Part shown: positions 21,470 to 23,209 of the stretch, piece by piece
How the letters are laid out: the number at the start of each line of letters is the position of its first letter
How positions within the stretch are numbered: the stretch's first letter is position 1
Assembly: GCF_022814725.1 (NCBI RefSeq)
Contig: NZ_CP093442.1
Location: 3,410,001-3,474,000, forward strand
Direction of reading: 5' to 3'
Length of the DNA: 64,000 bases
Origin: Bdellovibrio reynosensis
GTDB lineage: Bacteria > Bdellovibrionota > Bdellovibrionia > Bdellovibrionales > Bdellovibrionaceae
Notes under the pieces: model-generated
Database searches by the model: none
What the model was told of the DNA's origin: nothing
What the model saw: the letters and a program-made list of their open reading frames with translations, nothing else
Program-made: the position numbers and the translations under genes

Positions 21470-21570
21470 CATGGGGCACGAGATAAAGCCTATCAAGGAG
21501 CGATGGAGGAAAGCGTATATTATACGCCGACGACTGAGCGACGCAGAGAGGGTTTATCTGGTGCCCCATG
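21470..21570 (+). ncRNA. Long stem-loop element, copy A, directly 5' of tRNA-Thr(GGT)
   Basis: Inverted repeat closing a 65-nt core. Arms 21470-21479 and 21561-21570 pair over 10 bp, a single G-G mismatch follows (21480/21560), then 7 more bp (21481-21487/21553-21559). The core holds a purine-rich stretch (GGAGCGATGGAGGAAA), a small hairpin GCGTAT-ATT-ATACGC, and CGCCGACGAC. It ends one base before the tRNA. Copy B at 23021-23129 shares the core and the mismatch but not the arm sequence. It may be a pre-tRNA processing element or a repeat of unknown role. Confidence 0.6.
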
Positions 21571-21571
21571 G

Positions 21572-21646
21572 GCCCATGTAGCTCAGTGGTAGAGCACACC
21601 CTTGGTAAGGGTGAGGTCGTCGGTTCGGCTCCGATCATGGGCTCCA
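21572..21646 (+). tRNA. tRNA-Thr (anticodon GGT)
   Basis: 75 nt. Acceptor GCCCATG/CATGGGC, anticodon GGT in TTGGTAA, encoded CCA. Directly precedes tuf, the common thrT-tuf arrangement. Confidence 0.97.
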
Positions 21647-23015: not shown

Positions 23016-23020
23016 ACGGT

Positions 23021-23129
23021 TTTTTCATGATGAGAATTGGTCAAATGCGAGGAGCAAGGAGAAGGCCCTACTATTGTAGGCCGCCGACGCAGCCGACGAA
23101 GTCAGTTGGCCAATTGTCATCATGAAAAA
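23021..23129 (+). ncRNA. Long stem-loop element, copy B, directly 5' of tRNA-Trp
   Basis: Arms 23021-23033 and 23117-23129 pair over 13 bp. One G-G mismatch follows (23034/23116), then 6 bp (23035-23040/23110-23115). The 69-nt core has GGAGCAAGGAGAAGG, a CCTAC-TATT-GTAGG hairpin and CGCCGACG, matching copy A (21470-21570) in order and partly in sequence. It starts at the predicted transcription start and ends 4 nt before tRNA-Trp. Confidence 0.6.
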
Positions 23130-23133
23130 GTGC

Positions 23134-23209
23134 AGGGGTGTAGCTCCAGTGGTAGAGCGAACGACTCCAAATCGTTAGGTCGTGGGTTCGAATCCCTCCG
23201 CCCCTGCCA
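23134..23209 (+). tRNA. tRNA-Trp (anticodon CCA)
   Basis: 76 nt. Acceptor AGGGGTG/CGCCCCT, anticodon CCA in CTCCAAA, encoded CCA end. Precedes secE, a common bacterial arrangement. Confidence 0.97.

Follow-up and report, generated by a model that had tools for sequence, protein, structure and literature searches.

Two long imperfect palindromes lie directly 5' of tRNA genes in the window analyzed here (the whole stretch of 64,000 nucleotides of Bdellovibrio reynosensis DNA), and the question is whether such hairpins belong to the neighboring tRNAs or represent something more widely dispersed. The first of them, copy A, occupies 21470..21570 on the plus strand and was recognized with 75 bits (E 7.9e-18) by R1, a covariance model of the short type of element. 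The initial annotation had described a 101-bp palindrome with a stem of 10 bp, a G-G mismatch and 7 bp, separated from tRNA-Thr by a single base, and this description proved exact at these positions. Its left arm (21470..21494, plus strand) consists of 10 bp, the G.G mismatch, 7 bp and the inner pairs next to them, and is followed on the same strand by the conserved core AAGGAGCGATGGAGGAAAG-hairpin-CCGACGACTGAGCGACGCA (21495..21545) and the right arm (21546..21570); the stem reads 21470 CATGGGGCAC-G-AGATAAA ... TTTATCT-G-GTGCCCCATG 21570, with a gap of 1 nt to tRNA-Thr(GGT) (21572..21646, plus strand). Copy B, also of the short type (about 23020..23130, plus strand; inverted repeat at 23021-23129; R1 83.5 bits), lies 1.5 kb from copy A, has its core GAGGAGCAAGGAG-hairpin-GCCGACGCAGCCGACGAAG at 23049..23101 (plus strand) and ends 3-4 nt before tRNA-Trp(CCA) (23134..23209, plus strand). 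As the initial annotation had noted, the two copies have the same architecture and core (GGAGCRA.GGAG ... hairpin ... CCGACG) and unrelated arms. Both folds beat their dinucleotide-preserving shuffles, none of 200 being as good in either case (-49.4 kcal/mol, z -7.1 for copy A; -45.8 kcal/mol, z -5.4 for copy B).

Comparison with other genomes of the genus revealed different histories for the two sites. In most congeners, the tRNA-Gly/tRNA-Thr spacer that forms site A is empty, being 9-20 nt long with neither arm present; it is filled in four genomes (G000, G021, G005 and G008), and at this position in G004 a hairpin lacking the core is present. Copy B is intact in 12 genomes (11 congeners besides B. 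reynosensis itself), the outer stem is retained and the core deleted in three loci (L040, L046 and L051), the core is scrambled in L048, and the site is empty in others. By this distribution, copy B is older than copy A. Core-less hairpins with their outer arms retained (L040, L046 and L051 at site B, L006 at site A) suggest frequent loss of the hairpin centre by deletion. Among the 12 orthologues of copy B, both sides have changed in 14 of the 31 pairs, 98% of cells are paired, and G.U cells outnumber A.C cells by 17 to 2, from which the structure of this copy would seem to have since been kept under constraint. It is possible that copy B acts locally on the tuf/tRNA-Trp transcript. It should also be noted that the tuf/tRNA cluster lies ∼1.7 Mb from dnaA in G012 (tuf locus 3618007) and 0.8-0.9 Mb from it in the other tabulated genomes, a position that reflects a large rearrangement.

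The two copies probably belong to a dispersed and apparently unnamed family of mobile hairpins in DNA, which are small (∼90-160 bp) and non-coding. The model R1 had matches in 37 of the 66 genomes of the family Bdellovibrionaceae, with a maximum of 28 per genome, and R2, a model of a longer type with an extra stem, had matches in at least 30 of the 66. In our own genome, the short type is represented by three strong copies (A, B and a third at 2,642,320) and the long type by at least 50 (at least 55 among the R2 matches listed). Some sites are orthologous between genomes, so that these counts pool inherited and independent insertions and, because of the common ancestry of copies, are not independent of each other. 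Exact core patterns matched copy B alone in this genome, since copy A departs from these patterns and most other copies are long-type elements; the rest required a structure model. Each element is a long imperfect hairpin, with a strongly conserved core whose internal loops are rich in purines and which is capped by a hairpin, and with a recurrent purine-purine mismatch ∼12-16 nt outward of the core; the arms are mostly unrelated between loci, apart from orthologous loci and some shared inner-arm bases. At L092, L214 and L293, two or three copies lie together in tandem, and C-rich short tandem repeats occur immediately to the left of the copies L085, L141 and L151. In two distant species, a long-type copy lies just upstream of the same thymidylate-synthase-like gene, whose start is ATGAAGCAGTATCA (L108, at 3211152 of our own genome, and L173 7094-7201, at 617094 of G015), and no long-type copy lies upstream of that gene in G017; the shared position reflects either an old insertion followed by loss or repeated insertion.

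Such a distribution changes the interpretation of the tRNA neighborhood. Where the neighborhood of a Bdellovibrio copy was read, tRNAs were nearby only for A and B, for the orthologues of these two and for the third short copy; A and B are atypical of the family in being reversed in orientation and placed beside tRNAs. The covariance-model scan with distances to tRNAs returned many copies, nearly all outside a tRNA context, which largely goes against the dedicated tRNA role (5' processing of the pre-tRNA or an effect on the tRNA-tuf transcript) proposed in the initial annotation; tens of copies per genome, and 125 in one acidobacterial genome, lie almost entirely away from tRNAs, and the spacer at site A (9-20 nt) is empty in most congeners. 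Thus, the tRNA reading of these hairpins is too narrow. The suggestion that pairing has been selected for holds for copy B, on the basis of the compensatory changes described above. The accompanying view, that this pointed away from recent copy-paste, was wrong, because A and B are copies of a mobile element, and the arms of that element diverge from copy to copy. On its own, compensatory change in a palindrome is not evidence of a local RNA function.

The structure also appears to be that of one particular strand. On the core strand, isolated G.U mispairs exceeded A.C mispairs by 59 to 27 in short copies, 51 to 4 in long copies and 36 to 17 in copies from other phyla, counting only mispairs flanked by Watson-Crick pairs; some of these are common by descent, and the direction is equal in each set. 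An excess of G.U over A.C on the core strand indicates that the relevant structure is that of a single strand. This strand is not the mRNA of the gene that the element touches, because most copies are antisense to that gene. The G.U bias could stem from an RNA function instead of from the form in which the element transposes. A class of cis-acting regulatory or structural RNA (a tRNA leader or 3' end element) would account for the 14 of 31 compensated pairs of copy B, for the excess of G.U over A.C on the strand transcribed together with tRNA-Thr and tRNA-Trp, and for one alphaproteobacterial metagenome-assembled genome (MAG) in which a copy (L256 2053-2208) lies directly 5' of tRNA-Val, as A and B do at their tRNAs. 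However, copies mostly run antisense to the genes that they touch at the stop codon, most sites have no tRNA, copy A is missing from most congeners and a T tract of the terminator kind was not found, and we consider such a class very unlikely. An intrinsic terminator was likewise rejected, because no T run follows the G+C stem.

Of 118 copies, 62 have a right arm that ends at a stop codon of the opposite strand, usually at a distance of 20-32 nt from the core (stops were counted reading outward, on the opposite strand and within 45 nt to the right of the core). Such stops were found in 27 of 46 short and 16 of 24 long Bdellovibrio copies and in 19 of 48 copies from other phyla; on the left side there were 6, 5 and 2, respectively (13 in total), and random points gave ∼5%. 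The right-arm stops were TAA (29), TAG (30) and TGA (3), and almost all of those in Acidobacteria were TAG. G+C-rich genomes usually favor TGA stops. From the sequences, the placement looks more like a preference for TAR as target than like an association with genes themselves. Orthologous sites with and without the element could be compared at site A, L143, L153, L245b and L233; the empty sites lack both arms, which shows that the whole hairpin arrives as one unit. At the 'empty' sites L159 and L245a short palindromes remain, which could be deletion scars. We rejected the idea that the arms arise by inverted duplication of the target, because empty sites have neither arm or only a short palindrome.

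Several of these features recall ERIC-like miniature inverted-repeat transposable elements (MITEs), which would be moved by a conventional DDE transposase with duplication of TA or YTAR and would overlap stops in one orientation. The elements are indeed small and intergenic, have long inverted repeats, overlap stop codons in one orientation and have empty orthologous sites, and CTAG flanks L159, L070, L082 and L153 on both sides. Nevertheless, MITEs keep their ends constant and vary in the interior, whereas in the elements the ends vary, the arms being unrelated between copies, and it is the centre that stays constant. YTAR showed no clear enrichment at arm ends in the whole set, its repetition was not a general feature, and the flanks gave proof neither of a general YTAR target duplication nor of a duplication of fixed length. 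Together with the strand bias described below, which is unexpected for double-strand cut-and-paste, this makes a MITE origin unlikely.

Orientation was analyzed with replichores assigned from the position of dnaA (2,534,975 in our own genome). With sites A and B set aside, 94% of the Bdellovibrio copies (184 of 195) lay on the strand that corresponds to their replichore, namely 106 of 111 long and 78 of 84 short copies, and only 60% of genes lay on the leading strand in the two of these genomes that were sampled. Copies A and B went against the rule in six of seven tabulated cases. From these positions, the core sequence falls on the template of the leading strand and its complement on that of the lagging strand.

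Replication-strand polarity is also a property of REP/REPIN-type repeats, which are moved by RAYT (TnpA-REP), an HUH Y1 transposase of the IS200/IS605 superfamily, and in this case the target would be TAG/TAA. Hairpins with conserved purine mismatches, intergenic sites and insertion 3' of a short target agree with this explanation; PF01797 genes are present in 59 of the 66 family genomes, and one short-type copy adjoins a RAYT gene (L195; 1 of 30 among the first RAYT loci). In contrast, the RAYT loci bear terminal repeats of their own (GGGGTATCGGTCA, AAGGTGCCTGGCAC) that are unlike the element arms, PF01797 is absent from three of six carriers tested in other groups (G068, G069 and G070), and G004 lacks PF01797 and yet has at least 44 long-type copies. 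No constant GTAG/GTGG foot was present either (GT[AG]G was sought at the inspected element feet), conservation being central and not at the feet. RAYT was rejected as the mobilizer on the basis of its differing terminal repeats and the carriers without PF01797, and this origin is improbable. As a separate observation, the RAYT loci L185-L208 and L211-L230 (in G003, G012, G015, G017 and others) carry distinct terminal-repeat families (GGGGTATCGGTCA, AAGGTGCCTGGCAC and AGGTACGGACACAC), that is, several separate TIRtron-like families unrelated to the element.

The core AAGGCGCnAGGAG-hairpin-CGACGnAGCAACG is present outside Bdellovibrio in several bacterial phyla. The exact pattern was found in 66 stretches, which include Bdellovibrio and come from Acidobacteria/Vicinamibacterales, Saprospiraceae, Euzebyales, Alphaproteobacteria including Sphingomonas, Nitrospirae, Chloroflexi, Myxococcales, Desulfobulbaceae and Patescibacteria; most of those outside Bdellovibrio are metagenome bins, and the isolates are Sphingomonas lacusdianchii and the Bdellovibrio strains. 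R3, a model built from the cross-phylum exact-core stretches, detected 125 copies in one Vicinamibacterales MAG (Acidobacteria), 23 in Euzebyales and 8-10 in four others. The element had no match in Rfam at either the gathering or a relaxed E-value threshold, and a search of open-licence literature yielded no published description of the core string or of these Bdellovibrio repeats. Collections of viruses, phages and plasmids gave one viral contig and no convincing phage or plasmid match, and a phage or plasmid origin was rejected on this basis. The 3' core GACGCAGCAACGCCG (for example, in L063 and L304) matches a stretch that is common in 16S rRNA genes, and one literature match is a 16S-based report; the likeness is probably coincidental.

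Taken together, the reading that we favor on balance is that these are trans-phylum mobile structured elements moving as a single-stranded hairpin, with insertion at replication forks on the 3' side of TAR. The conserved structured form would be a single strand, the core strand; the moving form would be a hairpin of single-stranded DNA or RNA present at replication forks, recognized through its core by a candidate enzyme acting there, and new copies would join the lagging-strand-template strand immediately to the 3' side of TAG or TAA. Entry at such positions implies landing after the stops of leading-strand genes, usually without harm and in one direction per replichore. The arm sequence drifts freely with pairing retained. 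No mobilizing enzyme was found for the elements, Y1/RAYT transposases being absent from several carriers. More tentatively, the elements may constitute an undescribed trans-phylum non-coding class, in which the recognition signal would lie in the internal loops of a single, rod-like strand of DNA or RNA, the arms would be free to vary, insertion would occur at forks 3' of TAG/TAA and the enzyme would belong neither to the Y1 HUH nor to the standard DDE transposases. In ordinary transposons the anatomy is the opposite of what is seen here, where the core is near-invariant across phyla and the arms change freely. Such elements offer a natural system for studying how hairpins, that is, single strands, enter chromosomes at replication forks; their placement just past TAG/TAA suggests a harmless way to insert, and their distribution makes the mobilizing enzyme a findable target.

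Several known systems share part of these properties. Integron attC sites, compared here by general description only, have arms conserved in structure and not in sequence and one active folded strand; in contrast with them, the elements have a highly conserved core sequence and are scattered at stop codons instead of forming cassette arrays. ERIC/IRU, known from enterobacteria and their relatives, is in Yersinia a MITE-like hairpin that overlaps stop codons in one orientation. The elements are like ERIC, as generally known, in these respects, whereas ERIC sequence is conserved throughout, and the elements have free arms and a core that extends across phyla. With REP/REPIN and RAYT they share small size, an imperfect-hairpin structure, intergenic location, copy numbers of tens to hundreds, strand specificity, likely non-autonomy and the lagging-strand polarity (184 of 195 copies), and they differ in lacking the GTAG/GTGG foot, in having a conserved centre with variable arms and in occurring in carriers without PF01797. 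CGTC-tagged REPs (Di Nocera 2013, PMC3733652) are similarly palindromic, occur in several phyla and have no dedicated transposase known; they are 20-40 bp long, with stems of 8-9 bp, first pairs of AT and tails of CCA, whereas the elements here are 90-160 bp long and have another conserved core. The elements thus resemble REP/REPIN and ERIC in the way they work, yet depart from them in some defining properties (the foot tag, the RAYT link and the conserved ends), and there is a fair chance that they form a class of their own.
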